Source of the DNA: Mesorhizobium sp. WSM2240
GTDB taxonomy: Bacteria > Pseudomonadota > Alphaproteobacteria > Rhizobiales > Rhizobiaceae
Assembly: GCF_040438645.1 (NCBI RefSeq)
Contig: NZ_CP159253.1
Span: 1,116,001 to 1,180,000, forward strand
Direction of reading: 5' to 3'
DNA length: 64,000 nucleotides
The stretch's first letter is position 1; every line of letters starts with the position of its first letter. The position numbers were made by a program, and so were the translations under genes. The notes below the pieces were generated by a model that saw only the letters and a list, made by a program, of their open reading frames with translations, made no database searches and was not told the origin of the DNA. This document shows, one piece after another, positions 40,317 through 57,867 of the stretch.

Positions 40317-41663
40317 CTAAGCGGCGACCTGTTTTTCCCGGGGTTGAAGCACAGCGATCAAGAGCGACAAAAGCGCCTTCAGCCACCTGAGCAGGAGGGA
40401 GAAGTTGTAACCCGCGGCGGCCAGGATGGCGTTGATCGCGTCGCCTTGGGCGTGGGCGAGGTCGTTGCGGCCCATCCTGTGTTCGCTTTTGATATGGCCG
40501 ATCACCGGCTCGACCGCGGATCGTCGTCGCATCTGGCGTTTGATGGCCGGCGTCACGCGACGCTTCTGGCCTGCAGTGAAGACCCTAAACCTGTGACTTT
40601 GCGGCGCGTTGTGGCCGCGGTAGCCGGCGTCTGCGAGGATGCGCTCAATCTCGGCGCCGATGGTGTCTTCCATCGCGGGAATGACCGTTCCCAGCGTGTG
40701 CCCGTCATAGGGGTTGCCGGGAAGGGCCATGGCGTGCAGGGCGAACTGGCCGCCCTTCGAGCGCTTCAGCGTGGTGGCGATGGAGACTTTGACGCCGAAT
40801 TCGTAGGGCGCGTGCGCCTTCCCCTTGCCGATGCACTCGACCTCATGGGCGTGCAAGCTGTAGATCTTGCGGCCGCGCTGACGCTGCCTCTGTTCGAGAA
40901 CGGTCGAGGCCTGGTAGAGCGGCCACTTGAAGATCGTGTCCAGCTCCGCATCCTCGGCGATCTGGCGCTTGATGTCGCGGATGATCCGCCCGAGATAGGT
41001 CTTCAGTTTGCGCAAGGCCTTGCTCGCCCTCTTGAACTGCTTGGCGTGCGCATAGCGCTGATGCTTGATCAGCGCCAGCTTGCCGACCCGGACATAGCTC
41101 TGGCGCAGGTCAAGCCCCACTCTTTTCGCCAGCCGCACCAGCCGCTCGCGGGCGCGATGGATGAGCTTGGCGTCGGTCGGGAACATCACATTCTTGGGCT
41201 GCACCGTTGTATCGACGATGACCCGCCGCGTGTCCTGCGGCTTCATCGCTCCGGTCTTCACCGCCACCGCCAGGCTTTCCTGCAGCAGGGCCGTGATCCG
41301 CTCCTCGCCCATGCGCTGACGCCAGCGCGTCATCGACGAGCGGTCAAACGGCAGTTCATGTTGGAAGAACTCCTCGCCGCACAGGTACTGGAAATAGGGA
41401 TTTTCGATCCAGCGCTCGCACAGTGCCTCGTCCGACAGGTCGAAGGTGTGCTTGAGGATCGCCAGCCCGGCCATCAGCCGTGTCGGCAAGGGCGGCATGC
41501 CCGGTCCGTCGGAATAGACCGCGCCGAAACGCTCTTCCAGCACCGACCAGTCGATGGCCTGCGTCAACCGCACCAGTTCGTGCTTCATGTTGAGAATCTG
41601 ATCAAGGCGGGCGCGGAACAGATCCTGTTCTCCCCTCTCGCGCCGCTCGCGTGGTTTGCCCAT
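40317..41663 (-). CDS. IS5-family transposase, apparently intact
   Basis: 448 residues from MGKPRERRERGEQ. It has the DUF772-type N-terminus (LTQAIDWSVLEERFGAVYSD, LSDEALCERWIENPYFQYLCGEEFFQHELPFD), the first DDE Asp in VIVDTTVQPKNV, the second in ADAGYRGH, and RRRSAVEPVIGHIKSEHRMGRN for the final Glu. The start at 41663 excludes 31 residues of an upstream extension that reads through the IS end. The element probably covers about 40300-41780 and sits at the edge of the defence island. Confidence 0.88.
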   Translation of the reverse strand: MGKPRERRERGEQDLFRARLDQILNMKHELVRLTQAIDWSVLEERFGAVYSDGPGMPPLPTRLMAGLAILKHTFDLSDEALCERWIENPYFQYLCGEEFFQHELPFDRSSMTRWRQRMGEERITALLQESLAVAVKTGAMKPQDTRRVIVDTTVQPKNVMFPTDAKLIHRARERLVRLAKRVGLDLRQSYVRVGKLALIKHQRYAHAKQFKRASKALRKLKTYLGRIIRDIKRQIAEDAELDTIFKWPLYQASTVLEQRQRQRGRKIYSLHAHEVECIGKGKAHAPYEFGVKVSIATTLKRSKGGQFALHAMALPGNPYDGHTLGTVIPAMEDTIGAEIERILADAGYRGHNAPQSHRFRVFTAGQKRRVTPAIKRQMRRRSAVEPVIGHIKSEHRMGRNDLAHAQGDAINAILAAAGYNFSLLLRWLKALLSLLIAVLQPREKQVAA

Positions 41664-41756
41664 CCCCTGGCTCTCCGATTCACCGCGATAAGGGCAGTGA
41701 ATCACGCTTTGCCGGGCAGGAAAACCACAAACTGGAATTGCAAGGAAACGACCCAC

Positions 41757-41907: not shown

Positions 41908-43842
41908 TCAGACGGCGAGAGTAACAATCGCCCAGCCCTTGACACCTTGAAGAGCGTCACGATGTGCGGCCGAAATCCGATCCCGGTGCACCGCTAGACA
42001 AATCAGATGACGTGCGCGGCTGGTTGCAACATAGAGCTTCTTCATGAAGCCGGCGCGCAACGAGGCGTTGGTCTTTGGATGCGCGGGGTCGAAGGCAGGC
42101 CTTTGGAGCCCGTCGTCGATGAGAAAGGGCAGCATCTCGGCCACGTCAAAGAGCTTGTTCAGCTTGGTCTCCAGCACCAGGGTTGCATCGTGCGTTTCGC
42201 CTTTGACGCCGTGAATTGTCGAAACCTCCATTATGATTCCGTTCGGCGCGGCATAGACGTTGCCTGGAAGGGCAGCCGCGTCTTGAAGCTCGGCCGGGAC
42301 ATCGGAAAATGCCATGAACGGAGCGACTTCCGCACTGGCAATATCGACTTCGCAGCATTCTCCCAGTTTCGTCGCCAAAGAGCCCCAGTGTTCCGGGGAA
42401 AGACGATCCGTCATCATCATTTCGGCCATCAGGCGATTGAAGTTCTCACCCTCGTTAGTGCCGGCAAAGTAGCGGCTTAGGTTCGCCAGCGAAATCGCCC
42501 CCGCTTTGCCGTTGCGTCCGACTAAGGTTTTGCCCCCCAGCCGAAGTAGTTCGACGGCGCTCTGCTTCAGCAAATGATAATGGCTGTGAACGGGACCATC
42601 TTGAAGTTCAACGCAGAGCCGAAGCGCACCGCAGAACGTGGAAGGGAGGGGAGCGCGATGGCCGCGCGAGCGATCAAAGGCAGGCCAATAGCTCTGAATG
42701 TTAAGCGGATTGTTGGCGCCTTCTGCATTCTGAGAGATTCCACCTACTACCTTGATTGTGCGGCGATGCTCCGCCGGGAGGCCCTCAACGATTTCACCGA
42801 ATTTCGCGAGCACGTCACCTATCGTGGCATCGTCATAGACAATCACAGTGCAAATGGGGGAGTCCGGGAGCGCCGCCCTCGAACCGGTAAGGGCGATCCG
42901 GCGCGTGCTAAGGCCGCGCACCTTCGACGCGATCGCTTGAGTGAACCGGCCACTGTCTGGAATAGGCTGCAAAACCACGGCGGCACCGTTGAAGCTTTCG
43001 TTGGGCTGGTCGCCGGGCATTCCATCGAAAATTGCCTGATCCGGATCACCGACTTTCTGAAACTTAACGTCGTCCGAATTCGAGAAGAGTCGCCCAAGGA
43101 ACTCGTCCTGGTATTTCTGTGTGTCTTGCATCTCATCGATCATAACGATCGGGAAGCGGTGCCGCAGCGCGGCCGCGACAGCAGGATTGGAAACCATCAA
43201 ATCCTCTGCCAAGGCGAACATTTCCGAGAAGAAAAAGAATCCGTTTTCTATGGCGGCTTTCTTGGCCGCCATCATGAAGTTGTATGAGTGGGTGTGCGCT
43301 CCCGGATTGCCCGGAACCTTGATGGTAAGCGCGCCATTCTCAAACACAACGCGCAGGTCCGAGACGCTCGCGTGTTTGTTCAGTAGAAACGTGCGAGTTC
43401 CAACTGGCAGTTTGCGGAACAGAAATGCGTCGGTCGAGGCGTCGTCGATACGTTGCGCTGGATAGCCCTTCGATCGGCAAGCCGGCAGCGCCAGGAACGT
43501 GTGCGTGAAATCCTGGATCGTCCCGATGAAGTGGGGGTAGGAGAGAAGGCGCCGTCCCGAGGCATCTCTTTTGATGCGGGACAGAATTTCATCCTTCGCG
43601 ATATTGGTATGAGTGAGTACGCATACTCCCTGGTGCGAGGCGGACCATTTTTGCGCCAAAAGCATCAGCTTCAGGGCAATAACGGTCGTCTTTCCTGCTC
43701 CTGGGCAAGCGTGGATATGTTGGTAGTCTCGAATTGCGCCGCGTCGCGCATCGTCCAGCACAAGAACCCGATCGGCGCTCGCCCCTTCATTGAGGCGAAC
43801 GAGCAAAGCCTCGATGGCCTCATCCTCAAGCTGCGGCAGCAT
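41908..43842 (-). CDS. gajB: UvrD/PcrA-like helicase, Gabija GajB-like
   Basis: 644 residues with superfamily 1 helicase motifs: Walker A ACPGAGKT (45-52), VLTHTN, Walker B IVMIDEMQDTQ (about 233-241), VGDPDQAIF (about 264), STIHGVKGETHDATLVLE (motif V region) and KLYVATSRARHLICLAV (motif VI). It starts 17 bases inside the end of the OLD-family gene, so it is co-translated. An OLD nuclease with a TOPRIM domain followed by a UvrD-type helicase is the Gabija architecture (class 2 OLD), which blocks phage by nucleotide-sensed DNA cleavage. It is longer than the founding GajB. Confidence 0.82.
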   Translation of the reverse strand: MLPQLEDEAIEALLVRLNEGASADRVLVLDDARRGAIRDYQHIHACPGAGKTTVIALKLMLLAQKWSASHQGVCVLTHTNIAKDEILSRIKRDASGRRLLSYPHFIGTIQDFTHTFLALPACRSKGYPAQRIDDASTDAFLFRKLPVGTRTFLLNKHASVSDLRVVFENGALTIKVPGNPGAHTHSYNFMMAAKKAAIENGFFFFSEMFALAEDLMVSNPAVAAALRHRFPIVMIDEMQDTQKYQDEFLGRLFSNSDDVKFQKVGDPDQAIFDGMPGDQPNESFNGAAVVLQPIPDSGRFTQAIASKVRGLSTRRIALTGSRAALPDSPICTVIVYDDATIGDVLAKFGEIVEGLPAEHRRTIKVVGGISQNAEGANNPLNIQSYWPAFDRSRGHRAPLPSTFCGALRLCVELQDGPVHSHYHLLKQSAVELLRLGGKTLVGRNGKAGAISLANLSRYFAGTNEGENFNRLMAEMMMTDRLSPEHWGSLATKLGECCEVDIASAEVAPFMAFSDVPAELQDAAALPGNVYAAPNGIIMEVSTIHGVKGETHDATLVLETKLNKLFDVAEMLPFLIDDGLQRPAFDPAHPKTNASLRAGFMKKLYVATSRARHLICLAVHRDRISAAHRDALQGVKGWAIVTLAV

Positions 43843-45793
43843 TCACTTCGGCCTCCTCGGCGGGCGGTGCCAAAGGAACGCCCGTGATGTACCCCAAGGC
43901 AGCGAGGATATAACGGGGCAGCTTCGCTCTTAGTGCGTCTTTGCGGGCGAGACTTTCGGCCTCAGCTGCCTTCTGACGACCTTCGGCCTGCTCTGGTGTC
44001 TCGCCCGCGACGGGGAGGGAAATCACTGGTCCGTAACGCTCGGCCAGCAGCGCGGAGAGTTTGTAGGCAACGGATGTTTTACCTCCGCGCGATTCGGCGA
44101 TTTCTTTGAAAATCGCGATTGCGCGCAACTCCTCGTCCGCGGGCAGTTCAGCAAAACCATTGGTGCTGCCTTTCAACGCCTCGTACACCTCGGCAGCGAG
44201 GCCCGACCGAATGAGCGCGTATTCAAACGTCCAGTGATCAGAAAGTTCGACGCGGACATTCTGACCGGCAAGCGCTTTACGATTGTTCATCCATTGGGTC
44301 CGACCAGCGGCATTCCCCGCGTAGTGCGATTCCCAATAGTGCTGATTGCGTTCTTTGGACTCGATGAAACCGTACGGATTTCCTTCGGCAATCTTCGCCC
44401 TCTCGGGCCAGAGGTCGAGATCACGCAGGCAGGCTATCCGGGTGCTCAGCCATTCGACGGGCTCTGCATCTTTGCCTCTGCGCTGGAATATGTTGGCAAA
44501 CGGCGCGAACGCGATGCTCCCGACATTTATGACGGACACCCCGAAATCCTCGAAGGATGCGCCCAGGAGATCAGCAAATGTGGATAGGAGAATATTCTCT
44601 CCGTCGCCTTCCACCAAGATGACGCCCTTTGCGAAGAAGAGATTCGATTTCGTCACGTCGAGAAATTTCTCAAGGTAGACGTAATTCTCTGGCGCGAGTT
44701 GGGTCTCTTCCTTACGCAGAGAGAAGGCCTTTCCCGCCGACATGATGATGATGCTTTCGAGGGGAGCTTTCGACGCGAGGTTTGGGCTGTGTGTCGTAAG
44801 GACGCTTTGAAGGGACGAATTTCGCCCGCCGAAGCCTTCGCGCAGCGCTTTCAGAAACTTCATCTGAAGCTGGGGATGCAAATGCGCTTCAGGTTCTTCG
44901 ACCAGGAGCAAGGGAAAGTCGTGCTGCTCCTGCTCTAACAGCAAGAGCTCCGTCGCTATAAATAGTAGGTTGCTGTAGCCGAGTCCTTGATAGCGCTCAT
45001 GTGCATCAATCAGCAGCTGAAGCCGTTCCAGAATGGCTTTGAACATTTGCCGCCGCTCGACGTCTGTAAGCAGCGCGAGGTCGGTCCCACCCATAATGCT
45101 GATCAATGGACTCAAGGGATTTGTCTTGAAATCCAGATCGCGAATCTGGGTTTGAACGCGATCTCGCGCGGAAGTGACGCCCTCATTTCCCATGATCGTC
45201 TGATTAGCCGTAACGATCGCAGAGAGCAGCTCGTCCACCACGTTCGCCTGCCCGAATTGCTCTGAGGCATCCAAAATTTGCGCAAGGCGAGAGCCGCGCC
45301 CGCCCATCAGTTCAGCTTCTGCATCACGCAGCGGCCGAAGGTAGGTTGTCGCGAGAAATTCGCGCGCTTCACGTTCGATACTCGGCCCGTCCGCATTCGG
45401 TCCTGAGCGGATCTCAGTGCGAATTTGCCGTGTCCCTCGAGCCAGCGGCGAAGTCTGCTCGGCCAAAAGATTTAAGTACAGAACCGACTTGCGACCTTGT
45501 GCGTCCGTCAGTTTTTCGTGGGTGAGGTGCTCGACGAATGCAGCAGCCTGACGGCTGTTGATGTCCTCAAATTTCAGCTGAATAGAGAAGGATGTAGCGC
45601 CCTTCCGGAAATCGCGGTCCTGAATGCGTACCCACTCGCCGGAATTGACCGATAGTGCATACCGCAGCGCGTCGATGAGCGCTGTCTTTCCACTGTTGTT
45701 CTCGCCAACGATAATGTTGATTCCAGAGTTCAGGCGAACCTTGAAATCCGCAAACAGCCGGAAATTCCGAATCGTGATCTCAGACAAAAACAT
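43826..45793 (-). CDS. gajA: OLD-family ATPase-TOPRIM nuclease, Gabija GajA-like
   Basis: 655 residues. ABC-type ATPase domain: Walker A GENNSGKTAL (about 30-38), Walker B LLLVEEPEAHLHPQ (about 295-308) and H-loop TTHSP (about 334). C-terminal TOPRIM domain: LVEGDGE with the metal-binding Glu (about 394-400) and RDLDLW (about 457-462). It is a class 2 OLD nuclease paired with a helicase. The ATG at 45793 follows GGGGGAAG; a TTG-led extension to 45805 is less likely. It lies 250 bases downstream of the three-gene operon, same strand. Confidence 0.84.
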   Translation of the reverse strand: MFLSEITIRNFRLFADFKVRLNSGINIIVGENNSGKTALIDALRYALSVNSGEWVRIQDRDFRKGATSFSIQLKFEDINSRQAAAFVEHLTHEKLTDAQGRKSVLYLNLLAEQTSPLARGTRQIRTEIRSGPNADGPSIEREAREFLATTYLRPLRDAEAELMGGRGSRLAQILDASEQFGQANVVDELLSAIVTANQTIMGNEGVTSARDRVQTQIRDLDFKTNPLSPLISIMGGTDLALLTDVERRQMFKAILERLQLLIDAHERYQGLGYSNLLFIATELLLLEQEQHDFPLLLVEEPEAHLHPQLQMKFLKALREGFGGRNSSLQSVLTTHSPNLASKAPLESIIIMSAGKAFSLRKEETQLAPENYVYLEKFLDVTKSNLFFAKGVILVEGDGENILLSTFADLLGASFEDFGVSVINVGSIAFAPFANIFQRRGKDAEPVEWLSTRIACLRDLDLWPERAKIAEGNPYGFIESKERNQHYWESHYAGNAAGRTQWMNNRKALAGQNVRVELSDHWTFEYALIRSGLAAEVYEALKGSTNGFAELPADEELRAIAIFKEIAESRGGKTSVAYKLSALLAERYGPVISLPVAGETPEQAEGRQKAAEAESLARKDALRAKLPRYILAALGYITGVPLAPPAEEAEVNAAAA

Positions 45794-45805
45794 ATCTTCC
45801 CCCAA

Positions 45806-46041: not shown

Positions 46042-46494
46042 CTAGGCGATCTCAGTCATGGCAACGGCCAGCGAAAGCTCGCGAGCGTAGGCATCACGTC
46101 GGCTTGCTGGTTGACGCAACGCGTAGGATGGATGCTGGAAAAAGTATATCGGTGTCCGGGTCGGACGTTCAGCCTGCAGCACTTCAAACGCCCGCTTGGC
46201 CTCGCCGCCGAACACCACAACGGCTGCCAAGGAACTGTTCTGCCAAAGACGATGCTTGCGCAACCACGGCAGAAGCTCGGCCCACGTAGGGTTCCGCTCG
46301 TCGCCGTCGGGTCCTTCCACAGGACCAGGAATAATATTGTCCCGCGTGATTGAGATACGGTTTAAGGGCAGATCAGCAAGGAGGGAAGTGAGAAAGCGGC
46401 CCGACCGCGAGGTTGGTGCGAGTGGCGCGTGAAGTCCGCCTTTGGCGTTTTTCTTAGCACACAGGCCCAGGAACAGGATTGTCTTATCTGTCAT
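46042..46494 (-). CDS. Uracil-DNA-glycosylase-fold protein
   Basis: 150 residues. The pattern fits the UDG superfamily: ILFLGLCAKKNA at the place of motif 1, TSRSGRFLTSLL, NIIPGP at the usual Asn position, VVVFGGEAKRAFEVL and FQHPSYALR, the C-terminal HPS-x-LR motif. The acidic residue that activates water in motif 1 (as in GQDPYH or GEAPG) is not present, so it may bind modified bases without hydrolysing them, or use another mechanism. It is the third gene of a tight operon; its ATG overlaps the radical SAM stop as ATGA. The assignment rests on motif order only. Confidence 0.6.
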   Translation of the reverse strand: MTDKTILFLGLCAKKNAKGGLHAPLAPTSRSGRFLTSLLADLPLNRISITRDNIIPGPVEGPDGDERNPTWAELLPWLRKHRLWQNSSLAAVVVFGGEAKRAFEVLQAERPTRTPIYFFQHPSYALRQPASRRDAYARELSLAVAMTEIA

Positions 46495-47900
46495 CTTGCA
46501 TGCTGTAACGCCATAATGGTGTATAAATTCTTTCTAACCTGGTCCACGGGAACCTCTCCGAACTGCAGACCGGTCGAAAAGTTGAACTCGTCGCGGCCGA
46601 CCGAAGCCCCGGTCTCAACGGAGGCAGGTGAACCATACCAAAGCATTTCGGAAGCCGAATAGCCGGATCGAAGGAGCCGGTTCCAGTCCGGTGTCCCAGG
46701 GTAGGGCCGGTACTCGAACGCGCTGCATCGGAATCTGCCCGGCATTCCCGCGGTTAGATTCCAGAGATTCTCGATCAGCCGCAGCGTCGCTTGATGCTCT
46801 GCGTGGGTTTCGGTGGGCAGCCCCAGCATGAAATAGCCTTTGACCGAGATGCCGGCCCTGCATAGCCGGGTTACAACGCGCATCACTTGCGCAACAGTGA
46901 TTTTCTTGTCGATGTGACTAAGCAGGCGGTCGCTTCCAGTTTCAATGCCGAGAGCAACTTCACGACACCCCGAATCGACCATGAGATCGATGATCGACTC
47001 CGGCACCTTGTCGAGAATATTGATGCGACCGGTGGCGTCCCACCTCAAACCCAGAGAAGCGTTGGAAAATGCACGAAGCGTGTTTGTGATCACCTTGGGA
47101 CTGGCGAGGAATAGGTCATCAACAAAGCGGATTCGGGTCACGCCATAGCGGTCTCTCAGCTCTGTCATTTCGGCGATGATGTTGTCTGCCGTGCGAATTC
47201 GGATGCTGACGTCGGGATTGCCGCTGATCGCCGCCCCGCAAAAGGAACAATCAAACGGACAGCCGCGGGACGCAACCATGGCGGACTCCACCTGATCCTC
47301 ATCGATATACGGATCTTGCGGAAGGAACGAACGGTCCAGCAACGGAAGCGCATCAATGTCCGGCGCCAGCAATGCCCTCTCGCCTTGCAGCCGGGGAACC
47401 ATCGCTTTATCGCCATCGCGCCATCCGACCAGGGGCATGTCTTCGCGAGCGCAGATATCGCCAAGCAACAGCGGGATGCGTGTCTCCGCCTCGCCGACGA
47501 CCAGAGCATCAATGCGAGGAAGGATCGGGTCCGCAAGAATTTCCGCCGGCATAGCCTTCGCCTGATGTCCGCCTAGCATGACGTGTATCGACGGATCCGC
47601 TTTGGCGAGTACCGCTTGGCTATAGCGATATGTTGGGGCGAGAAGGTTCAAACCGACCCAGCGAGGGGCAGCTTCGTTGATAATCCTAGCTGTCTCGTCG
47701 ATTCCGACGCCAAGCGCTTCGCTGTCGAGCAAGCCGACCGCGAATCCTGCTGCTGTGGCTACCGTCGCTATGTAGCCGAGACCGAGGGTCGGCAACGTGA
47801 AGTCGTTGACACGGCGCTCGTGCCCATAGTCTTTCAGCGGAGAGTTTACGAGCAGAAGATCAAGTGTGTTGGCCGCGCCTAGAATCCGGGAATCCTTCAT
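46491..47900 (-). CDS. B12-binding-domain radical SAM protein
   Basis: 469 residues. N-terminal cobalamin-binding-type Rossmann domain (TLPTLGLGYIATVATAAG, VMLGGHQAKAMPAEIL, DALVVGEAETRIPLLL; about 1-170). Then a radical SAM barrel with the 4Fe-4S motif C214-x3-C218-x2-C221 (SRGCPFDCSFCG), RIRFVDDLFLA, VALGIETGSDRLL and GYFMLGLPTET. Members methylate or rearrange unreactive carbons using SAM and often B12. The gene overlaps the kinase-like gene in front (ATGA) and the UDG-like gene behind (ATGA). Neighbours suggest a nucleotide or nucleobase substrate; this is inference. Confidence 0.82.
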   Translation of the reverse strand: MKDSRILGAANTLDLLLVNSPLKDYGHERRVNDFTLPTLGLGYIATVATAAGFAVGLLDSEALGVGIDETARIINEAAPRWVGLNLLAPTYRYSQAVLAKADPSIHVMLGGHQAKAMPAEILADPILPRIDALVVGEAETRIPLLLGDICAREDMPLVGWRDGDKAMVPRLQGERALLAPDIDALPLLDRSFLPQDPYIDEDQVESAMVASRGCPFDCSFCGAAISGNPDVSIRIRTADNIIAEMTELRDRYGVTRIRFVDDLFLASPKVITNTLRAFSNASLGLRWDATGRINILDKVPESIIDLMVDSGCREVALGIETGSDRLLSHIDKKITVAQVMRVVTRLCRAGISVKGYFMLGLPTETHAEHQATLRLIENLWNLTAGMPGRFRCSAFEYRPYPGTPDWNRLLRSGYSASEMLWYGSPASVETGASVGRDEFNFSTGLQFGEVPVDQVRKNLYTIMALQHAR

Positions 47901-48487
47901 GATGCAATGTCCAGGCGTCCAATGATGTCAGCAACCTTCATTGCAGTCGCTGCCGCGTCCTCATTGGCGTTAACTGAGATGACCGGATGACCTCGCGCCC
48001 GCAGGAACGCAATTCCTTCACCGTAAAGGGCAATTTCGTCCTCAAGCCCCAGACTTCGCTTGAAAAAGTCAGATTGGTTTGATTGCCGGGTCTCCCGTCT
48101 ACCGGCAATAACCTGAGCCCGCGCCTCAAGGGCGACAGTGACAACGCCAGCGAGGAGCGGCGCGTTGATCTGATAAATGTACTCCCGGTCGATCCCCGAG
48201 AAAGTCTGGTAGACGAGGCTGGATAGCACGTACCTATCAACCAGCAGGTTGCCGGTTGTCCTCTCAAGCAGCAACGCCCTCGCCGCTGCCAATGCCAGAC
48301 AAAGCGCAATCCCGGGTTTTTCGCTTCGGGCAAGCTCGCGGATCAGTGGCTGGAGGCTGGTCGTCTCGACGTTGCTAGTCGCTTGGAAGGGCGGAGCTCT
48401 CTTCGCCAGCGACGGCATCAGTCGCCGTAGCAACTCCGACTTGCCGATTCCGCTGGGGCCTTCGATGGCAATGATCAGGCGGCTCAT
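47897..48487 (-). CDS. Thymidylate-kinase-like P-loop protein
   Basis: 196 residues from MSRLIIAIEGPSGIGKSELL. It has a Walker A EGPSGIGKS (9-17) and the DRY motif of dTMP kinases in LLVDRYVLSSLVYQ (D84-R85-Y86), with a LID-like arginine region (RQSNQSDFFKRS) near 145. The core housekeeping motif DG/D-x-GK (EGxDGxGK) is changed to EGPSGIGK, so substrate preference may differ. The start at 48487 has CGAGG upstream; a longer frame to 48526 lacks one. It leads the three-gene operon and probably phosphorylates a (modified) nucleotide. Confidence 0.72.
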   Translation of the reverse strand: MSRLIIAIEGPSGIGKSELLRRLMPSLAKRAPPFQATSNVETTSLQPLIRELARSEKPGIALCLALAAARALLLERTTGNLLVDRYVLSSLVYQTFSGIDREYIYQINAPLLAGVVTVALEARAQVIAGRRETRQSNQSDFFKRSLGLEDEIALYGEGIAFLRARGHPVISVNANEDAAATAMKVADIIGRLDIAS

Positions 48488-48662: not shown

Positions 48663-49316
48663 TTGCTGGTAGCGATCTGGACCCGCAACCCGACGGAACC
48701 CACCGCAGTGCAACTTAGGCTTCCCGTCGCGGCGATCATTTTCGTGGGAAGCTACCTGCCGCTTAGCCTGATATTGTTGGCTCAGGACTATAATTTTACG
48801 ATGCTTAGCAGGCCGATATGTTGGGGGTGGATCCGAGGGGCACCTGACTGCGTGCTCCCATTTCAGAACCCCGGGTACTCGATCAGTATCTTTGCCGGCT
48901 GCCTGCTGTGCTTCCTAACCACACTACTCGCTCTTTGGCTATTGCCAGCCAAGCGCACCATAACGATAGTCGAGGCAGAGTACATCGCGGTCGATTTGAT
49001 GAATTACACATTGCCATATGTTGTTTCTTTCATGAGTATAGACTATCGCGATAATGGAAAATTTCTTGGCCTGCTTATATTTTTAGCATGGATGTTCTGG
49101 CTTACTTATCGATCTGGTCAGATCATTCTAAACCCATTGCTAATCGCGTTTGGCTGGCGTCTTTACAACGTGAGATATCGCCATGCCGGGTCGGATAACG
49201 TCCATATTAAGCACGCCCTGGCAAAGGGCATCTTGACAGCGGAGCGCCCGGAAAAATTCGCTGAAATGCAGGACGTGTTCATCATCAAGCCGAAACAGAC
49301 CGAGAGCCTTCCGTGA
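48663..49316 (+). CDS. kwaA: KwaA-like membrane protein (Kiwa defence system)
   Basis: About 217 residues with four hydrophobic segments: AAIIFVGSYLPLSLILL, SISIFAGCLLCFLTTLLAL, MNYTLPYVVSFMSI and FLGLLIFLAWMFWLTY. It is followed by a basic cytoplasmic tail. It precedes and overlaps a DUF4868 gene by 4 bases; a membrane protein plus a DUF4868 protein is the Kiwa arrangement, where KwaA senses phage at the membrane and KwaB binds DNA. The start is uncertain: TTG at 48663 or GTG at 48708. Identity depends mainly on the neighbour. Confidence 0.72.
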   Translation: MLVAIWTRNPTEPTAVQLRLPVAAIIFVGSYLPLSLILLAQDYNFTMLSRPICWGWIRGAPDCVLPFQNPGYSISIFAGCLLCFLTTLLALWLLPAKRTITIVEAEYIAVDLMNYTLPYVVSFMSIDYRDNGKFLGLLIFLAWMFWLTYRSGQIILNPLLIAFGWRLYNVRYRHAGSDNVHIKHALAKGILTAERPEKFAEMQDVFIIKPKQTESLP

Positions 49317-50233
49317 CAGCACTCAACGACTTGCGGGATTTCGATGTTGACGCAGCAGAGGTTACGCTTTGGACGTTTAAAACGTCGAGGGCAGGTGGCA
49401 CATTGGGCTTCAAGGGCAGGTGGGTCGAAACATCCGAGGCATTGGATAACGCGCTGCGCGAAGCCGTGAAAGCCGAACGGGCACACATTGAGGAGATGAT
49501 TGAGTATGGCCTGCTCGCTCAGAACAACGAGGCAAGCGCCCTCAGGCTCGACGCGGATGAAACGCATGCCTCATGGATTGTTGATGTCGCGGAGGACGAC
49601 TCAGCTCAGAACCGGGTCCGGAACCTGAAAGATCTTCGAAACTCGGGATTCTATGCGATTAAGCTCGTGCAAGGCGAAACAGTGCTATACGGCGTGAAGA
49701 AAACAGACGCGTCATGGCACACCCGGAGAGTCCAGAATGCGGTTTCCGCCATATTTGTGGAAGACGTAATGGGGATTGAAGAATCGCCGAGCTTTGACAT
49801 CGCCAAAAGCGTCGATTTCTTCATAGTTGGTGACTCCCTCCTTGTTGCGGACAAAGGCAGGTTCGAATCCATCATGCAATACAAAGCGGCTCACCGAGAG
49901 GATTTCGCTGCTTTGACGGCCGAGCCTGCTTTCCTTGCCATTTTGGCGGACGTGGGGCCGATCGTAGCCTTCGTTGGAGACAATAAAATCCATCTTCGGC
50001 GAGCCTCGGCGATCCGTCAGAAGGCCTATTATTCCGACGCGGCCTTCATGAACAACCTCCGCGCGCGGCGTGATGAAATGGGCTTCAATTTTGAATTCGA
50101 CGCGGTTGGTCGGATAATTGCTACAGCCGAGCATTGCCGAGAAATCTTTCAGGCCCTCTTAGATCATAGGCTTTTGTCAAGGCTTTCGGAAAACATTTAC
50201 GACGTTCAGGACGCTGTCTCGATTGCGGTCTGA
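49313..50233 (+). CDS. kwaB: KwaB-like DUF4868 protein (Kiwa defence system)
   Basis: 306 residues of the DUF4868 family: SVDFFIVGDSLLVADKGRFESIMQYK in the middle, then AFLAILADVGPIVAFVGDNKIHLRRASAIRQKAYYSD and a C-terminal FNFEFDAVGRIIATAEHCREIFQALLDHRLLS. Length and order agree with KwaB, the cytoplasmic partner in Kiwa, which acts with KwaA against phage DNA replication. The GTG start overlaps the kwaA stop. Both genes are visibly less GC-rich than the neighbouring traG. Confidence 0.8.
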   Translation: MTALNDLRDFDVDAAEVTLWTFKTSRAGGTLGFKGRWVETSEALDNALREAVKAERAHIEEMIEYGLLAQNNEASALRLDADETHASWIVDVAEDDSAQNRVRNLKDLRNSGFYAIKLVQGETVLYGVKKTDASWHTRRVQNAVSAIFVEDVMGIEESPSFDIAKSVDFFIVGDSLLVADKGRFESIMQYKAAHREDFAALTAEPAFLAILADVGPIVAFVGDNKIHLRRASAIRQKAYYSDAAFMNNLRARRDEMGFNFEFDAVGRIIATAEHCREIFQALLDHRLLSRLSENIYDVQDAVSIAV

Positions 50234-50551: not shown

Positions 50552-52582
50552 ATGACACCCACGAAGCTGCTTATTGGGCAGATCGCCGTTGTGTTCGCAA
50601 TCGTCATTCTCGGCGTGTGGGCGGCGACACAATGGTGCGCCCATAGGCTCGGCCATCAGCCGGCACTCGGCGGGCCATGGTTTGAGGCGGCCGGCTGGCC
50701 AATCTATGGGCCTTGGAAACTCTTCGAATGGTGGTTCCAGTTCGATGCTTATGCACCAGAGGTTTTCGACAAGGCCGGCATGCTGGCGGCGGCCAGTGGC
50801 TTGATGGGATGTGCCGCCGCGATTGCTGGCTCGCTGTGGCGGGCACGGCAGCGTGGCCTGGTCACCACCTACGGCTCCTCGCGATGGGCTGCGAAGAGCG
50901 AGATTGAGAAGGCCGGACTGTTTCAGCCGGCAGGCGTTTTCCTCGGCAGGCTGAACAATCGCTATCTGCGCCATGACGGGCCCGAGCATGTCATAGCCTT
51001 CGCGCCGACACGTTCGGGCAAGGGCGTCGGCCTGGTCGTTCCTACACTTTTGTCCTGGCCCGGCTCGGCAGTCATCCACGACATCAAGGGCGAGAACTGG
51101 CAGCTGACCGCCGGATGGCGCTCGAAGTTCTCGTACAGCCTCCTGTTCAATCCGACCGATCCGAGATCTGCGCGCTACAACCCATTGCTGGAAGTACGCA
51201 AAGGCCCAGACGAGGTACGCGACGTCCAGAACATAGCTGACATCCTGGTCGATCCCGAAGGCGCGCTGGAGCGGCGGAACCATTGGGAGAAGACCAGTCA
51301 TTCACTCTTGGTCGGCGCCATCTTGCACGTGCTCTACGCGGAAGAGGAAAAGACACTTGCTCGCGTCGCCACTTTCCTGTCGGACCCTCAGCGCTCGTTT
51401 GCCGCGACGCTGCAGCGGATGATGACCACCAATCATCTCGGCATTGCGGATAAGCCTCAAGTGCATCCGGTCGTTGCCTCTGCAGCGCGCGAAGTGCTCA
51501 ACAAGTCAGAGAACGAGCGTTCAGGCGTTCTCTCGACCGCCATGTCGTTTCTCGGGCTCTATCGTGACCCAACAGTCGCGGCGGCAACATCGGCCTGCGA
51601 CTGGCGCATTGCTGACCTCGTGGATGCGAAGCGACCGATCTCGCTCTATCTGGTAGTGCCGCCATCCGACATCTCGCGTACCAAGCCTCTGGTGCGACTG
51701 GTGCTTAATCAGATCGGCCGGCGGCTCACCGAACGGCTGGAGGGTGACCCAAAGAAGAGCCGCAAGCACCAATTGCTCATGATGCTGGACGAATTTCCGG
51801 CGCTCGGCCGGCTCGATTTCTTCGAGACGGCGCTCGCCTTCATGGCGGGTTACGGCATCCGAGCCTATCTGATCGCGCAATCCTTGAACCAGATCTCCAA
51901 GGCCTATGGCGAGAACAACGCCATCCTCGACAACTGCCATGTCAGGATCGCTTTTTCTTCCAATGACGAGCGCACGGCCAAGCGCATCTCCGACGCGCTC
52001 GGCATGGCGACGGAGCTGCGTGCCATGCGCAACTATGCCGGCCACCGCCTCGCGCCCTGGCTCTCCCACGTCATGGTCAGTCGCCAAGAGACCGCCCGCC
52101 CGCTGCTGACGCCCGGCGAGGTGATGCAATTGCCGCCGGCTGACGAATTGGTGCTGGTCTCTGGGCTTGCGCCAGTCCGGGCAAAGAAGCTGCGCTACTA
52201 CGAGGACAGCAACTTCACCGAGCGGGTGTTGCCTGTGCCAGACCTCGCAGACGGTCCTTATGCGGACCGACCGGCGCCACGGGCCGACGAATGGAGCGGG
52301 CGGGTACGCGGCGTGGACCGTCGGCTTCTCACAGGCGAAGAGCGTTCGGGCGCAATTTCCGAAGATGAAGGCGGCGTGCAGCAGCAGCGTCATCCCGGCC
52401 TGCCCGAGGAAGATGCCGTCGCCAAACAAAAACCTGGGCAGGATGACCTGTTCGGACCGCCCGATGACGAAGGCGATATGGCGGCCGAGAAGAAGGTCAT
52501 CGACCGGATTTCCAATGTCGCGCGGGCGTACGGCATCAATGAAGGCGGGGGCGAAGACAAGGACATCCTGCCCGGCTTCTGA
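50552..52582 (+). CDS. traG: TraG, type IV coupling protein (VirD4 family)
   Basis: 676 residues. Two N-terminal membrane helices (about 8-28 and 76-95), Walker A APTRSGKGVG (151-160) and Walker B LLMMLDEFPALGRLDF. The typical IYLVVPPSDISRTKPLVRLVL-like segment is present (SLYLVVPPSDISR). It docks the RlxS-bound DNA strand to the Trb channel and provides energy. The C-terminal 80 residues are acidic and variable. ATG with GAGGAGC site. It starts the transfer block that continues through trbI. Confidence 0.92.
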   Translation: MTPTKLLIGQIAVVFAIVILGVWAATQWCAHRLGHQPALGGPWFEAAGWPIYGPWKLFEWWFQFDAYAPEVFDKAGMLAAASGLMGCAAAIAGSLWRARQRGLVTTYGSSRWAAKSEIEKAGLFQPAGVFLGRLNNRYLRHDGPEHVIAFAPTRSGKGVGLVVPTLLSWPGSAVIHDIKGENWQLTAGWRSKFSYSLLFNPTDPRSARYNPLLEVRKGPDEVRDVQNIADILVDPEGALERRNHWEKTSHSLLVGAILHVLYAEEEKTLARVATFLSDPQRSFAATLQRMMTTNHLGIADKPQVHPVVASAAREVLNKSENERSGVLSTAMSFLGLYRDPTVAAATSACDWRIADLVDAKRPISLYLVVPPSDISRTKPLVRLVLNQIGRRLTERLEGDPKKSRKHQLLMMLDEFPALGRLDFFETALAFMAGYGIRAYLIAQSLNQISKAYGENNAILDNCHVRIAFSSNDERTAKRISDALGMATELRAMRNYAGHRLAPWLSHVMVSRQETARPLLTPGEVMQLPPADELVLVSGLAPVRAKKLRYYEDSNFTERVLPVPDLADGPYADRPAPRADEWSGRVRGVDRRLLTGEERSGAISEDEGGVQQQRHPGLPEEDAVAKQKPGQDDLFGPPDDEGDMAAEKKVIDRISNVARAYGINEGGGEDKDILPGF

Positions 52583-52687
52583 CCCTCCAGTGCCGGGCGC
52601 ATCTCAGCGTAAATAAGGGGCGTAAGCAATTTCGGGCTTCTGAACGATGCTTGTTCGGAGCGGGCGCAGCAGCGCCGGCCAACCGGA

Positions 52688-53110
52688 ATGAGCAGCATGA
52701 AACCCGCACGCATCCGCCATCAGTTTCTGCTGGATTCAGAGCTGAGCGAAAAGCTCGCTCAGCTCAGCCGCAATCCTTCAACCACCAAATCGGAGGTCGT
52801 GGCGAAGGCGGTCCAAGTCTTCATCGATCAGCGCGGGGAGAACGAGCTCGACCGGCGCTACGGCAAGAGGCTCGACCGTCTTTCCCGTGACCTCGACAAC
52901 GTCAGGCGCGATGCCGAAATGATCCTGGAGAGCCTGGCGCTCTTCATCCGCTTTTCCATCACGTTGCACGCTCACACGCCGGCGCCTGACAAGGCAACCC
53001 AGGCGATCGCGCAGGAGCGCTTCCAAAAATTCGTCGAGCAAGTCGGCCGCCAGATCGCGTCCGGCAAGCGCTCCCTGCGCAACGAAAACAGTGGGGGAGG
53101 GGGCGAATGA
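52688..53110 (+). CDS. CopG-type ribbon-helix-helix protein upstream of trbB
   Basis: 140 residues; the N-terminal 50 (ARIRHQFLLDSELSEKLAQL then STTKSEVVAKAVQVFI) are a ribbon-helix-helix DNA-binding fold, the rest a helix-rich tail. Proteins of this type are found between traG and trbB on many alphaproteobacterial ICEs; local regulation of transfer genes is likely but not proven. Starts at 52688 or 52697 are both possible. It overlaps trbB by 4 bases. Confidence 0.78.
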   Translation: MSSMKPARIRHQFLLDSELSEKLAQLSRNPSTTKSEVVAKAVQVFIDQRGENELDRRYGKRLDRLSRDLDNVRRDAEMILESLALFIRFSITLHAHTPAPDKATQAIAQERFQKFVEQVGRQIASGKRSLRNENSGGGGE

Positions 53111-54075
53111 CTTCTCATCCCGAGGCCGATCACCGTCGCCGCGCCATGTTGCGCACCGCCATGGGCCAGGCCATCGCGGAAGCGTTGGCCGATCCAGCCG
53201 TCATCGAGGTGATGGTCAATCCCGACGGCGTGCTACGGCTCGACCGTCTAGGCGAGGGTCGTGTCGACACCGGCGTGTGCATGCACCCGTCCGAGGCGGA
53301 ACGGATCGTCCGCCTGATCGCCTCGCACGTTCGCGCGGAGGCCCATACGGACAATCCGATCGTCAGCGCCGAGCTGCCGTCCGGCGAGCGTTTCGAGGGC
53401 CTGCTGCCGCCCGTGGCGCTGGCGCCGTGCTTTTCCATTCGTAAACCGGCGGCGCGTGTCTACAGGCTCGCCGATTACATTGCCGACGGCATCATGATGC
53501 CGCTGCAGGCCGATGCCTTGCGCAAGGCTGTCCGGGAGCGCCGCAATATCCTGGTCGCCGGGGGAACGTCGTCGGGCAAGACGACGCTCGCCAACGCGCT
53601 GCTGGCGGAAGTGGCGGAATGCGACGAGCGGGTGATCCTGATCGAGGATACGCGCGAACTGCAATGCGCGGCCAAGGATTGCGTCGCGCTCAGAACCCGC
53701 CGCGGCTCCGTCACGCTTGCCGATCTTGTGCGCTCCACACTGCGGCTCAGGCCCGACCGCATCATCGTCGGCGAGGTGAGAGGCGCCGAAGCCCTCGACA
53801 TGCTGAAGAGCTGGAACACGGGCCATCCGGGTGGCATCGCCACGGTTCATGCCAATTCGGCGCGCTCAGCCCTCTATCGCATCGAGCAGCTCGCCCAGGA
53901 GGCCGTCGTCACCGTTCCCCGCCGTCTTATCGCCGAAGCCATCGACCTGATCGTCTTCATCGCCGGGCGCGGCTCGTCCCGCCGGGTCGATGCGATCGCC
54001 GAGGTCACCGGTCTCGACGGCAATGGCGACTATGCGGTCACCCAGCTCACCCTCGCTCAACTCCAGCAGCTTTGA
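53107..54075 (+). CDS. trbB: TrbB, secretion ATPase (VirB11 family)
   Basis: 322 residues with Walker A GGTSSGKT (152-159), the Asp box (VILIEDTRELQC), Walker B-like IIVGEVRGAEALDML and the His box GHPGGIATVHANS. It forms a hexamer at the inner face of the membrane and powers assembly of the mating channel. It is the first trb gene. Confidence 0.93.
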   Translation: MTSHPEADHRRRAMLRTAMGQAIAEALADPAVIEVMVNPDGVLRLDRLGEGRVDTGVCMHPSEAERIVRLIASHVRAEAHTDNPIVSAELPSGERFEGLLPPVALAPCFSIRKPAARVYRLADYIADGIMMPLQADALRKAVRERRNILVAGGTSSGKTTLANALLAEVAECDERVILIEDTRELQCAAKDCVALRTRRGSVTLADLVRSTLRLRPDRIIVGEVRGAEALDMLKSWNTGHPGGIATVHANSARSALYRIEQLAQEAVVTVPRRLIAEAIDLIVFIAGRGSSRRVDAIAEVTGLDGNGDYAVTQLTLAQLQQL

Positions 54076-54087
54076 AAGGCCTCCCTC

Positions 54088-54396
54088 ATGCGCAAGAAAC
54101 TTCGATTTTTATCATCGGCCGTCATCACGTTTGTCCTCACGGCGCCGGCCCATGCGGCCGGTTCCGGCATGCCGTGGGAAGAACCGCTGCAGCGGATCCT
54201 TGAATCGGTGCAAGGGCCTGTCGCCAAGATCGTCGCGGTGATCATCATTATCGTCACCGGCCTGACGCTCGCCTTCGGCGATACGGCTGGCGGGTTTCGC
54301 CGGCTGATCCAGATCGTCTTCGGCCTGTCGATCGCATTCGCGGCAAGCTCCTTTTTCCTCTCCTTCTTCTCCTTCGGCGGCGGGGCGCTCATCTGA
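54088..54396 (+). CDS. trbC: TrbC, pilin (VirB2 family)
   Basis: 102 residues: a signal peptide (MRKKLRFLSSAVITFVLTAPAHA) and two hydrophobic helices (IVAVIIIIVTGLTLAF and LIQIVFGLSIAFAASSFFLSFFSF). It is cleaved and probably cyclised by TraF into the conjugative pilus subunit. It overlaps trbD by one base. Confidence 0.9.
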   Translation: MRKKLRFLSSAVITFVLTAPAHAAGSGMPWEEPLQRILESVQGPVAKIVAVIIIIVTGLTLAFGDTAGGFRRLIQIVFGLSIAFAASSFFLSFFSFGGGALI

Positions 54397-54668
54397 TGGC
54401 GGCCGGCGAGCAGCATAGCGAGGGCTTCGAGGTTCCGGTTCACCGGGCGCTGACCGAGCCGATCCTGCTCGGCGGCGCGCCGCGGGCCGTGGCGATCCTG
54501 AACGGCACGGTGGCCGCGGCGATCGGGCTTGGGATGCAGCAGTGGATCGCGGGCCTGGTGCTCTGGATAGCCGGCCACACGCTCGCGGTCTTCGCCGCCC
54601 GCCGCGATCCGGATTTCGCGAGCGTGCTCGTCCGCCACCTCCGCCTGAAGGGCTGGCTCGCATGCTGA
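54396..54668 (+). CDS. trbD: TrbD, membrane protein (VirB3 family)
   Basis: 90 residues with FEVPVHRALTEPILLGGAPR and two closely spaced membrane helices, the VirB3 pattern. It works with TrbE at the inner membrane. The end overlaps trbE by 7 bases. Confidence 0.9.
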   Translation: MAAGEQHSEGFEVPVHRALTEPILLGGAPRAVAILNGTVAAAIGLGMQQWIAGLVLWIAGHTLAVFAARRDPDFASVLVRHLRLKGWLAC

Positions 54669-57097
54669 ACCTTTCGGAATACCGCTCCCGCGCCGACCGG
54701 CTTGCCGACCATCTTCCATGGGCGGCATTGGTCGCGCCCGGCATCGTTCTCAACAAGGACGGCAGTTTCCAGCGGACCTTCCGATTCCGCGGGCCTGATC
54801 TCGAAAGCGCGACGGAAGCCGAGCTCGTCGGAATCTGTGCGCGGGCGAACAATGCGCTGAGAAGGCTCGGCTCTGGCTGGGCATTTTTCTTCGAGGCCGA
54901 GCGCGTCGAGGCGCTCGATTATCCTAAATCGGACTTTCCCGACGCCGCGTCATGGCTGGTCAACGAGGAACGGCGCGCGGCCTTCGAGGGCAAGGTCGCG
55001 CATTTCGAGAGCCGCTACCACCTGACCTCACTGTTCATGCCGCCGCCGGATGGCCAGGCGCGAGCGGAGAGCGCACTGGTCGACGCCGATCGTGAGAATG
55101 GGAAACGCGACTGGCGTCAGGAACTGACGCGATTCCGCGACGAGACCGACCGTGTGCTCGATCTGCTCTCCGGCTTCATGCCCGAGGTGCGCGCGCTCGA
55201 CGATGCCGAGACGCTCATATTCCTGCACGGTACGATCTCGACCAGGCGTCACCCGGTCACTGTACCGCAGACGCCGATGTACCTCGATGGCGTCCTGGTC
55301 GACACGCCGCTTACGGGTGGACTGCAGCCGATGCTGGGCGAACAGCATCTGCGCATGCTCACCATTCTTGGTTTGCCGAATGTCACCCGGCCCGGCATCC
55401 TCGATGCGCTCAATCACCAGGACTTCGCCTATCGCTGGGTGACGCGGTTCATTCCACTCGACAAGACGGAAGCCGCGAAGACGCTGACCCGCCTGCGCCG
55501 GCAATGGTTCGCCAAGCGCAAATCGATCGCCGCCATCTTGCGCGAGGTGGTCACCAACGAGCCGGTTCCGCTCGTCGACAGCGATGCCGAGAACAAGGCG
55601 CTCGACGCGGACGCCGCGCTGCAGGCGCTGGGTGGCGACCATGTCGGCTTCGGCTATCTCACCGCCACGGTGACAGTCTGGGACGACGACCGCCAGGCCG
55701 CCGAGCAGAAGCTCCGCGCGGTGGAGCGGATCGTGAATGGACTCGGCTTCACCACGATTCGCGAGAGTGTCAATGCGGTCGAGGCCTGGCTCGGCTCCCT
55801 GCCAGGTCACGTCTATGCCAATGTCCGCCAGCCACTCGTCCATACGCTAAACCTTGCCCATCTCATACCGCTATCGTCGGTGTGGGCCGGGCCGGCTCGC
55901 AACGAGCATCTGGGTAAGGTCATTGGGACAGAAGCTCCGCCGTTGCTCATTGCCGAGACCAGCGGCTCGACACCGTTCCGGCTGTCCACCCATATCGGCG
56001 ATGTCGGCCACATGCTGATAGTCGGGCCGACCGGCGCCGGCAAATCGGTGCTGCTTTCCCTTATCGCTCTGCAGTTCCGCCGCTATCCCGGCGCGCAGGT
56101 CTATCTCTTCGATAAGGGCAATTCTGCGCGAGCCGCAACGCTCGCCATGGGCGGCGAGCATCATGCTCTTGGCGCTGACGGTTCATTCGCCTTCCAGCCC
56201 CTGCGCAACATCGACGACCACGCCGTCCGCGGCTGGGCGGCGGAATGGATCGCTGGACTGCTCGCCCACGAAAGCGTCACTGTCACCCCAGAGGTGAAGG
56301 AAGCCGTCTGGTCGGCGCTCACCAGCCTTTCCACCGCTCCGGCGGAAGAACGCACGCTCACCGGCCTATCGGTGCTGCTTCAGTCTAATGCACTGAAGGC
56401 GGCACTCATGCCCTACACGCTCGACGGCCCTTTCGGCCGGCTGCTCGACGCCGATGACGACCGGCTGGCGCTGGCGGACGTGCAGTGTTTCGAGACCGAG
56501 GAATTGATACACAGGCAAGGCGTGGTCTTGCCGGTGCTCACCTATCTGTTCCACCGGCTCGAGGAACGCTTCGACGGGCGGCCGACGCTACTCATCCTCG
56601 ACGAAGCCTGGGTCTATCTCGATAACCCCCTGTTTGCCGCTCGCATCCGCGAGTGGCTGAAGGTGCTGCGCAAGAAGAATGTTTCGGTGATCTTCGCCAC
56701 GCAGTCTCTGGCTGACATCGCGGGCTCTGCCATAGCGCCCGCGATCATCGAGAGCTGCCCGCAGCGCATCTTTCTTCCCAATGACCGGGCGGTCGAGCCG
56801 CAGGCGCGCGAAGCCTATGAGCGTTTCGGATTGAACGAGCGACAGATCGAGCTGATCGCCCGCGCCACGCCAAAGCGCCACTATTATCTGCAGTCGCGGC
56901 GCGGCAACCGGCTGTTCGAACTGGGATTGGGTCCCGTCGCGCTCGCCCTTTGCGGCGCCTCAGATCCGGCCGCGCAGACTCTCATCGACACGGTCATATC
57001 CGAGCACGACCGGAGCGAGTTCGCTTCCCGATTCCTGAGCGCTCGCGGCCTCGAATGGGCCGTCGAGCTTCTCGGGGATTTCCCCCAACCAGAATAG
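54662..57097 (+). CDS. trbE: TrbE, conjugative ATPase (VirB4 family)
   Basis: 811 residues from MLNLSEYRSRADRLADHLPW. Walker A GPTGAGKSV at about 454-462, Walker B LLILDEAWVYLD, and the KKNVSVIFATQSLADI segment of VirB4 proteins. The largest energy provider of the channel. The start at 54662 is chosen because it overlaps trbD and matches the family; the frame is open further upstream. Confidence 0.93.
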   Translation: MLNLSEYRSRADRLADHLPWAALVAPGIVLNKDGSFQRTFRFRGPDLESATEAELVGICARANNALRRLGSGWAFFFEAERVEALDYPKSDFPDAASWLVNEERRAAFEGKVAHFESRYHLTSLFMPPPDGQARAESALVDADRENGKRDWRQELTRFRDETDRVLDLLSGFMPEVRALDDAETLIFLHGTISTRRHPVTVPQTPMYLDGVLVDTPLTGGLQPMLGEQHLRMLTILGLPNVTRPGILDALNHQDFAYRWVTRFIPLDKTEAAKTLTRLRRQWFAKRKSIAAILREVVTNEPVPLVDSDAENKALDADAALQALGGDHVGFGYLTATVTVWDDDRQAAEQKLRAVERIVNGLGFTTIRESVNAVEAWLGSLPGHVYANVRQPLVHTLNLAHLIPLSSVWAGPARNEHLGKVIGTEAPPLLIAETSGSTPFRLSTHIGDVGHMLIVGPTGAGKSVLLSLIALQFRRYPGAQVYLFDKGNSARAATLAMGGEHHALGADGSFAFQPLRNIDDHAVRGWAAEWIAGLLAHESVTVTPEVKEAVWSALTSLSTAPAEERTLTGLSVLLQSNALKAALMPYTLDGPFGRLLDADDDRLALADVQCFETEELIHRQGVVLPVLTYLFHRLEERFDGRPTLLILDEAWVYLDNPLFAARIREWLKVLRKKNVSVIFATQSLADIAGSAIAPAIIESCPQRIFLPNDRAVEPQAREAYERFGLNERQIELIARATPKRHYYLQSRRGNRLFELGLGPVALALCGASDPAAQTLIDTVISEHDRSEFASRFLSARGLEWAVELLGDFPQPE

Positions 57098-57111
57098 GAG
57101 CATTCAGAATC

Positions 57112-57834
57112 ATGCGGCGCCACCTTGTCACGGGTCTTGTCACCGTCTCCCTTATCCTCAAGCCGATCGCCGGATTTGCCCCACCGGCTTTCGCCGTCAC
57201 TGTTTTCGATCCCAAGAACTACGCGGAAAACGTGCTGACGGCGGCACGCTCGCTGGAGCAGATCAACAACCAGATCCAGTCGTTGCAGAACGAGGCGACG
57301 ATGCTGCAGAACATGGCGCGCAACCTTCAGCGCCTGGATTTCTCCTCGCTAGGCCAGCTGACCGGCGCGCTCAACCGTATCGATGGACTGATGATCCAGG
57401 CCGACGGGCTGAGTTTTGACCTTGGCCAGCTCGAGAGTGAATGGCGAGAAAAGTATCCGGAAAGCTACGACGGCACGATCAAGGTGAACGACCTGGCCTC
57501 AGCAGCACGCGAGCGCTGGCAAAGCGCCATGAAAGCCTTCCGCCAGACAATGCGGGTGCAGTCGCAGATCGTCGAGAACGTCCAGGCCGACGGCGACCTG
57601 CTTGCTGAGCTCGTCAACCGCAGCCAGGGCGCCACCGGCGCACTAGAGGCCCAGCAGGCGACGAATCAGCTGATGGCGCTGTCGGCCAAGCAGCAGATGC
57701 AGATCCAGACGCTGCTTGCGACCCAGTACCGCGCCGAAGCCGAGGACGCCGCCCGCAAGGCGCAGTCGGAGGAAGCCGCGCGCAAGACGACGCGGCGCTT
57801 CCTCGGCTCTGGCAAGGCCTATTCCGGCAACTGA
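57112..57834 (+). CDS. trbJ: TrbJ, periplasmic transfer protein (VirB5-like)
   Basis: 240 residues with a signal peptide (LVTGLVTVSLILKPIAGFAPPAFA) and a long helical body (LEQINNQIQSLQNEATMLQNMA and QQATNQLMALSAKQQMQIQTLL). It is thought to be a minor pilus component. No trbK entry-exclusion gene follows; only 33 bases separate it from trbL. Confidence 0.9.
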   Translation: MRRHLVTGLVTVSLILKPIAGFAPPAFAVTVFDPKNYAENVLTAARSLEQINNQIQSLQNEATMLQNMARNLQRLDFSSLGQLTGALNRIDGLMIQADGLSFDLGQLESEWREKYPESYDGTIKVNDLASAARERWQSAMKAFRQTMRVQSQIVENVQADGDLLAELVNRSQGATGALEAQQATNQLMALSAKQQMQIQTLLATQYRAEAEDAARKAQSEEAARKTTRRFLGSGKAYSGN

Positions 57835-57867
57835 GCCGGCATCGCCTGAAGCGAGGAAATCGGCAGC

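Follow-up and report, generated by a model that had tools for sequence, protein, structure and literature searches.

A B12-type radical SAM and thymidylate-kinase-like operon between Gabija and Kiwa genes in Mesorhizobium sp. WSM2240, a candidate nucleotide poison and antidote cassette

The operon and its three proteins

The DNA stretch analyzed here, in the following called the window, comprises 64,000 nt of the genome of Mesorhizobium sp. WSM2240 (contig NZ_CP159253.1, positions 1,116,001 to 1,180,000) and harbors a three-gene operon on the minus strand. The genes encode a dTMP-kinase-like nucleotide kinase (TK, 196 aa, 47897..48487), a radical S-adenosylmethionine (SAM) enzyme with a B12-binding domain (rSAM, 469 aa, 46491..47900) and a protein with the fold of the uracil-DNA glycosylase (UDG) superfamily (UDG-like, 150 aa, 46042..46494). 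The operon is real and intact, is joined by two ATGA overlaps of 4 nt each on the same strand (TK/rSAM at 47897..47900, rSAM/UDG-like at 46491..46494), and lies between a Gabija and a Kiwa gene pair. A preliminary description based on the sequence alone had already regarded these genes as one unit of kinase, radical SAM and UDG-fold proteins between Gabija-like and Kiwa pairs; the open reading frames (ORFs) and matches in Pfam, NCBIfam and PADLOC confirm the unit, and PADLOC matches confirm both pairs.

Both the Radical_SAM and the B12-binding domain of rSAM score above the curated Pfam cut-offs, and the CxxxCxxC motif (C214, C218, C221) is invariant in all 27 aligned sequences. By domains and motif, the protein is classified as a cobalamin-type radical SAM enzyme with predicted binding of cobalamin and a [4Fe-4S] cluster. 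Among the best 25 of 31 named NCBIfam radical SAM families (including ApyD, HpnJ, AprD4 and PhpK), every model stayed under its own cut-off; the best, ApyD, reached 132.4 bits against a cut-off of 750.

TK keeps the P-loop (GPSGIGKS) and the DRY motif, while the aromatic residue of the base pocket is replaced. This residue precedes a conserved Arg, is presumably part of the base pocket in dTMP kinases and is kept in none of 26 aligned TK sequences; the host Tmk has Phe at this position. With the housekeeping dTMP kinase model TIGR00041 (equivalog cut-off 83.25 bits), the window TK scores only 37.3 bits, and the TK of one actinobacterial locus (L012) scores 97.5 bits, above the cut-off.

The third protein belongs to the UDG superfamily by fold. 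Its motif A reads GLCAK instead of GEAPG, so that the acid is lost, and the pattern G[LP]CxK occurs in 8/8 aligned sequences, unlike in the family-4 and UdgX-like proteins of the host, which retain the acid (GEAPG/GEQPG). The HPS motif (H121-P122-S123) and N53, which we take to be the base-reading Asn, are likewise invariant (8/8). Since the protein contains only one Cys, it lacks the Fe-S cysteine set.

The cassette in related genomes

Judged from sequence comparison, the operon contains a conserved and translationally coupled core of a B12-type rSAM and a divergent dTMP-kinase-like enzyme, which is joined in nearly every relative by a gene of predicted glycosylase fold and outside the Rhizobiales usually by a putative nucleotide hydrolase. 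The underlying genome scan with an alignment of the rSAM family produced 169 pattern matches and 125 relatives; 80 loci were kept, and all cassette counts refer to these 80 of the 125 relatives found. A scan with the single rSAM sequence returned no relative. Partners were called by scoring the ORFs of these loci with partner profiles (at most 3.5 kb away, at least 80 bits). TK was found beside rSAM in 72 loci and a glycosylase-fold gene in 77, the latter being of the UDG fold in four Rhizobiales loci and AlkA/helix-hairpin-helix (HhH)-like in 73. Outside the UDG-type Rhizobiales, 69 of the 76 loci (69/80 overall) also contain a putative hydrolase gene, whose product has a NUDIX, CYTH or MazG-like fold, three folds unrelated to one another. 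In detail, HhH and TK are combined with NUDIX in 48 loci, with CYTH in 12, with a MazG-like protein in six, with both NUDIX and CYTH in one and with no hydrolase in one. UDG and TK without hydrolase make up the four Rhizobiales loci, HhH occurs without TK in five (three without hydrolase, one with NUDIX, one with CYTH), and no partner was counted in three (L016, L064, L078). This is the neighborhood check foreseen in the preliminary description, and it revealed that rSAM homologues are not mostly partnerless or in housekeeping settings.

The gene order is TK-rSAM-UDG in Rhizobiales, HhH-rSAM-TK-hydrolase in most actinomycetes (with CYTH on the opposite strand) and TK-HhH-rSAM with a convergent NUDIX gene in Nocardia. 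The commonest neighbor families outside the cassette occur in 18, 16 and 11 of the 80 loci and resemble helix-turn-helix (HTH) regulators by eye. A deviating arrangement was found in the acidobacterium Acanthopleuribacter (L016), where a NUDIX gene (46.6 bits) and a family-4-like UDG gene overlap each other, both being convergent to rSAM. This UDG reaches 53.5 bits with the Pfam UDG model and 29 bits with the Rhizobiales UDG profile, and was hence not counted as a partner; its motif A (GISAQK) has also lost the acid.

The HhH partner is, by profile comparison, a homologue of AlkA/HhH glycosylases and a putative glycosylase itself. It matches 3-methyladenine glycosylases (E 4.1e-8), and one of two proteins tried matched the NCBIfam AlkA model at 3.5e-7, under the cut-off; single-protein Pfam scans were weak or empty, with nothing significant. 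An Asp in the catalytic region is invariant in 29/29 aligned sequences, from a total of 73 loci. In the hydrolase slot, scores were 72.3 bits for NUDIX and 55.3 bits for CYTH; for the MazG/PRA-PH-like proteins, two scores lie above the cut-off (21.6 and 24.9 bits) and two below (20.3 and 18.9 bits), and the annotation of a plasmid record calls one such protein MazG-like. A quick rSAM tree with 22 open forks, comprising 80 rows (the window, one plasmid and 78 of the 80 loci), requires at least seven changes in the hydrolase slot and at least one in the glycosylase slot; this count leaves out nine hydrolase-less rows, with L016 set to NUDIX/UDG by hand and L031 set to NUDIX. Such fold swaps in two slots around rSAM and TK suggest that the product of the core has to be hydrolyzed in its triphosphate form and dealt with as a base within DNA. 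Both NUDIX and CYTH are present in a Nocardiopsis locus (L031:12018-13036), a possible intermediate of an exchange in the hydrolase slot.

With regard to distribution, 1,218 rSAM relatives were obtained at E <= 1e-20 among 7,998 candidates scored. Among the 120 of these that were listed, named relatives with 62-75% identity include Mesorhizobium, Bradyrhizobium and Rhizobium, and those with 53-57% identity are mostly from actinomycetes, which, going by record titles, also account for 73 of the 80 genome loci. The gene is accessory: it was found in none of 150 other genomes scanned and in 3 of 397 Rhizobiales genomes, the genome of the window included. The same three carry the UDG-like gene; one extra weak UDG match in this order is classed as UdgX-like on the basis of its GEQPG and KRRIH motifs. 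A housekeeping role for the operon was rejected, as the host possesses a Tmk of its own and four further proteins of the UDG superfamily, and as rSAM was absent from the 150 genomes.

Mobile elements carry the family as well. A scan of viral contigs yielded nine loci, 13 of 72,556 plasmid records contain it (all from Streptomyces or Kitasatospora), and in a phage collection of 50,697 records it occurs in two, both of Streptomyces phage SF3. There, a whole HhH-rSAM-TK-NUDIX cassette (L093:5139-8512) is located beside the phage integrase gene. In the cassette of the Streptomyces plasmid pSITFR-21c (L145:9151-12428), the hydrolase slot is filled by a MazG-like gene, and RecT, exonuclease and RusA genes close by give a prophage-like setting.

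Possible roles of the operon

With moderate confidence, we read the operon as a branch of a mobile cassette made up of a nucleotide poison and its antidote, the copy in the window most likely inhibiting the replication of invading DNA. This reading is based mainly on the repeated replacement by folds that are unrelated but have the same kind of substrate, and the use against invading DNA on the position between Gabija and Kiwa. rSAM would alter a (deoxy)nucleotide in its sugar or base, and TK, with a base pocket unlike that of the host Tmk, would phosphorylate the product towards a triphosphate interfering with DNA replication. This triphosphate would then be removed by NUDIX, CYTH or MazG-like proteins, and the HhH or UDG-fold protein would remove or bind the modified base once it has entered DNA; in the window version, the UDG-like protein and host enzymes would have to provide the protection. 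Viperins inhibit virus replication in a way analogous to this proposed use. More tentatively, the cassettes may represent a new class of intracellular antiviral systems, in which rSAM and kinase would produce a poison deoxynucleotide while glycosylase-fold protein and hydrolase guard the genome and nucleotide pool of the host, a counterpart of viperins at the DNA level with a built-in two-stage antidote. The preliminary description had proposed that rSAM makes a modified nucleotide, the kinase activates it and the UDG-like protein recognizes it or protects against it. This idea gains weight from the fold swaps in the relatives, but the UDG partner turned out to be that of Rhizobiales, with a more distant UDG in L016, most relatives having an HhH/AlkA-like protein and a hydrolase instead.

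Several observations weigh against this interpretation. The fold of rSAM points to no substrate, because in a structural comparison OxsB does not rank above AprD4 or MgmA. A hydrolase gene is missing from the window operon, whose UDG-like protein, having lost the motif-A acid, may not cleave. TK is absent from eight of the 80 loci: in L011 the contig stops 141 nt past the rSAM ORF, L064 and L078 are rSAM copies without any partner, and in L016, L044, L047, L075 and L079 no TK lies within 3.5 kb. The partner genes have only weak matches in PADLOC, none of them listed as defense genes. Furthermore, a survey of up to six ORFs around each of 20 actinobacterial copies (120 ORFs), compared with regions of the same genomes (114 ORFs from 19 of 20 regions, the remaining one yielding none), gave a non-significant enrichment of defense genes (at most 6/120 versus 1/114 ORFs, two-sided p = 0.12). 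At E <= 1e-59, the PADLOC families BrxD, DarG, DarT, PDC-S01, AbiLi and mREase_IV were found near the cassette with one member each, perhaps in fewer than six ORFs, DarT and DarG probably belonging to a single locus. The control regions gave two JetA models with a single member each, which were taken together as one ORF. This threshold was chosen after the results had been seen, the control families then being 25 of 38 listed, and the survey is not counted as support. Finally, a role in antibiotic production fits nearly as well as an antiviral one.

The surroundings of several copies speak for a defense role. In the window, GajA (43826..45805, PADLOC 703.5 bits) lies 236 nt downstream of the operon on the same, minus strand and is neighbored by GajB (41908..43842, minus strand, 738.4 bits). 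On the other side, the divergent KwaA (48663..49316, plus strand, 228.6 bits) is followed by KwaB (49313..50233, plus strand, 390.8 bits; PF16162 94.4 bits), and a further defense-type pair, IetA (234 bits) and IetS (99 bits), is located at 25569-29178 on the plus strand. Added to this are the SF3 copy beside an integrase gene, a type I restriction-modification set beside a Phreatobacter copy (L124, on the contig that L004 also represents) and, next to L008, a type IV restriction enzyme (900 bits). Relatives of the latter ORF with 77-86% identity occur in L017, L020, L030 and L078, thus in five of the 80 loci; the nine flanking proteins examined were picked by eye, so that no frequency is derivable. 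In the window, a transposase-like ORF of 479 aa (40317-41756, minus strand) was read from the sequence just outside the Gabija genes, and a run of conjugation-type genes, TraG-like and Trb-like by eye, extends over 50552-60937 (plus strand). From this run, the defense island seems to be part of an integrative conjugative element or a similar structure.

The strongest competitor, still rather unlikely in our view, is a secreted nucleoside antibiotic: the product would be dephosphorylated, exported and lethal to competitors, glycosylase and hydrolase would confer self-resistance, and the place in the island would be incidental. The three-gene cluster thmABC is such a case, with the NTPase gene thmC as resistance gene (PMC12691670), oxetanocin and albucidin are described as made with B12 radical SAM enzymes (PMC13331322, PMC7074753), and the preponderance of actinomycetes (73/80 loci) is in line with it. 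However, no exporter or phosphatase family is prominent beside the cassette in the 80 loci, where the commonest neighbors are HTH-like and an ABC-type ATPase occurs in four, and copies in a phage genome and between defense systems better suit an intracellular role. We consider it improbable that the cassette instead cleans up or restricts foreign modified DNA, with the glycosylase-fold protein excising or reading a phage base and TK, rSAM and hydrolase recycling or destroying nucleotides. NUDIX and MazG are nucleotide-cleaning folds, the operon lies in a defense island, and Brig1, a glycosylase of the UDG superfamily, does defend (PMC11078745), yet rSAM and TK are the fixed part and the glycosylase fold is the exchanged one, recycling requires no radical enzyme, and the window UDG lacks the motif-A acid.

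Least probable appears a modification of self DNA, in which a modified base is installed in the DNA of the host or element and the glycosylase-fold protein acts as base-exchange enzyme or reader. Kinases, HhH-derived transferases and radical SAM enzymes do take part in phage hypermodification, but the matches of the HhH and kinase partners are to AlkA and Tmk, no Pfam family that we would expect of a hypermodification pathway was matched, and triphosphate hydrolases as partners as well as a glycosylase swap between unrelated folds are hard to fit with a specific transferase.

If the poison and antidote interpretation is right, a mobile cassette occurring in actinomycetes, rhizobia, a phage and plasmids produces a modified nucleotide together with the antidotes to it. 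It would open a route to new nucleoside analogues and new glycosylase specificities and, next to viperins, would possibly be a second natural case of immunity through nucleotide analogues. With its two interchangeable antidote slots, the hypothesis can be tested before the product is known.

Comparison with known systems

Prokaryotic viperins are radical SAM enzymes, often accompanied by a nucleotide kinase, which convert a nucleotide into a poison of virus replication. rSAM is not assigned to them: it carries a B12 domain, and its sole PADLOC match is PDC-M51A. PDC-M51, a candidate two-gene defense system of PADLOC, is similar in pairing a radical SAM protein with a thymidylate kinase. Membership in PDC-M51 was rejected, as the window proteins reach only 31.0 and 30.4 bits over part of the PDC-M51A and PDC-M51B models, compared with 567 bits for a full PDC-M51A member; this weak match is uninformative because radical SAM proteins from 86 of 299 genomes match PDC-M51A at 1e-20. 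An intact PDC-M51 pair with genes overlapping by 1 nt was found in L122:8812-10634. Its kinase matches thymidylate kinase and dNK, and the pair forms a second, distant radical SAM family with the same kind of partner. The radical SAM protein of this pair differs in having no B12-binding Pfam match, although its relatives are named B12-binding by their sources. A plasmid scan for PDC-M51A at 1e-15 found none.

Of the oxetane-nucleoside enzymes OxsB and AlsB, OxsB differs in having about 730 residues, with an identity of 13-14%, and in being partnered, as described in PMC13331322, by an HD phosphohydrolase rather than by a Tmk-like kinase or a glycosylase. Albucidin was rejected as a parallel: in the cloned bacterial artificial chromosome, a thymidylate kinase gene is found at a distance of five genes from albA, yet albA and albB are reported as the minimal set (PMC7074753). 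Brig1 alone confers immunity according to PMC11078745, whereas the window UDG-like protein is tied to rSAM and TK and has an altered motif A. Other nucleotide-enzyme systems are predicted by DefensePredictor (PMC13092281), from whose main text the word "radical" is absent.

The preliminary description knew of no named system with this set of genes. This holds insofar as no match for the full set was found, but PDC-M51 and thmABC come near. Likewise, no description of the cassette of rSAM, TK and glycosylase was found in the literature searched, preprint servers and most subscription papers being outside the search. By analogy, the nearest characterized system would be thmABC, the 4'-thiothymidine gene cluster of Photorhabdus (Son et al. 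2025, PMC12691670). It, too, is a short operon, in which a radical SAM enzyme is combined with a nucleoside kinase and a nucleotide hydrolase, vitamin B12 was part of the authors' expression medium, and the product is phosphorylated and enters DNA (PMC12691670). Differences are that the main text of this report mentions no DNA glycosylase, that ThmB is an AbmG-like nucleoside kinase, and that the window operon is devoid of a hydrolase gene. Among the 120 of 935 PDC-M51A relatives that were listed there was no Photorhabdus, which is uninformative on ThmA. Likened by kind of protein and not by sequence, the thmABC components are present in most actinobacterial loci. The cassette is probably a kind of nucleotide-analogue system, possibly with a new immunity logic.
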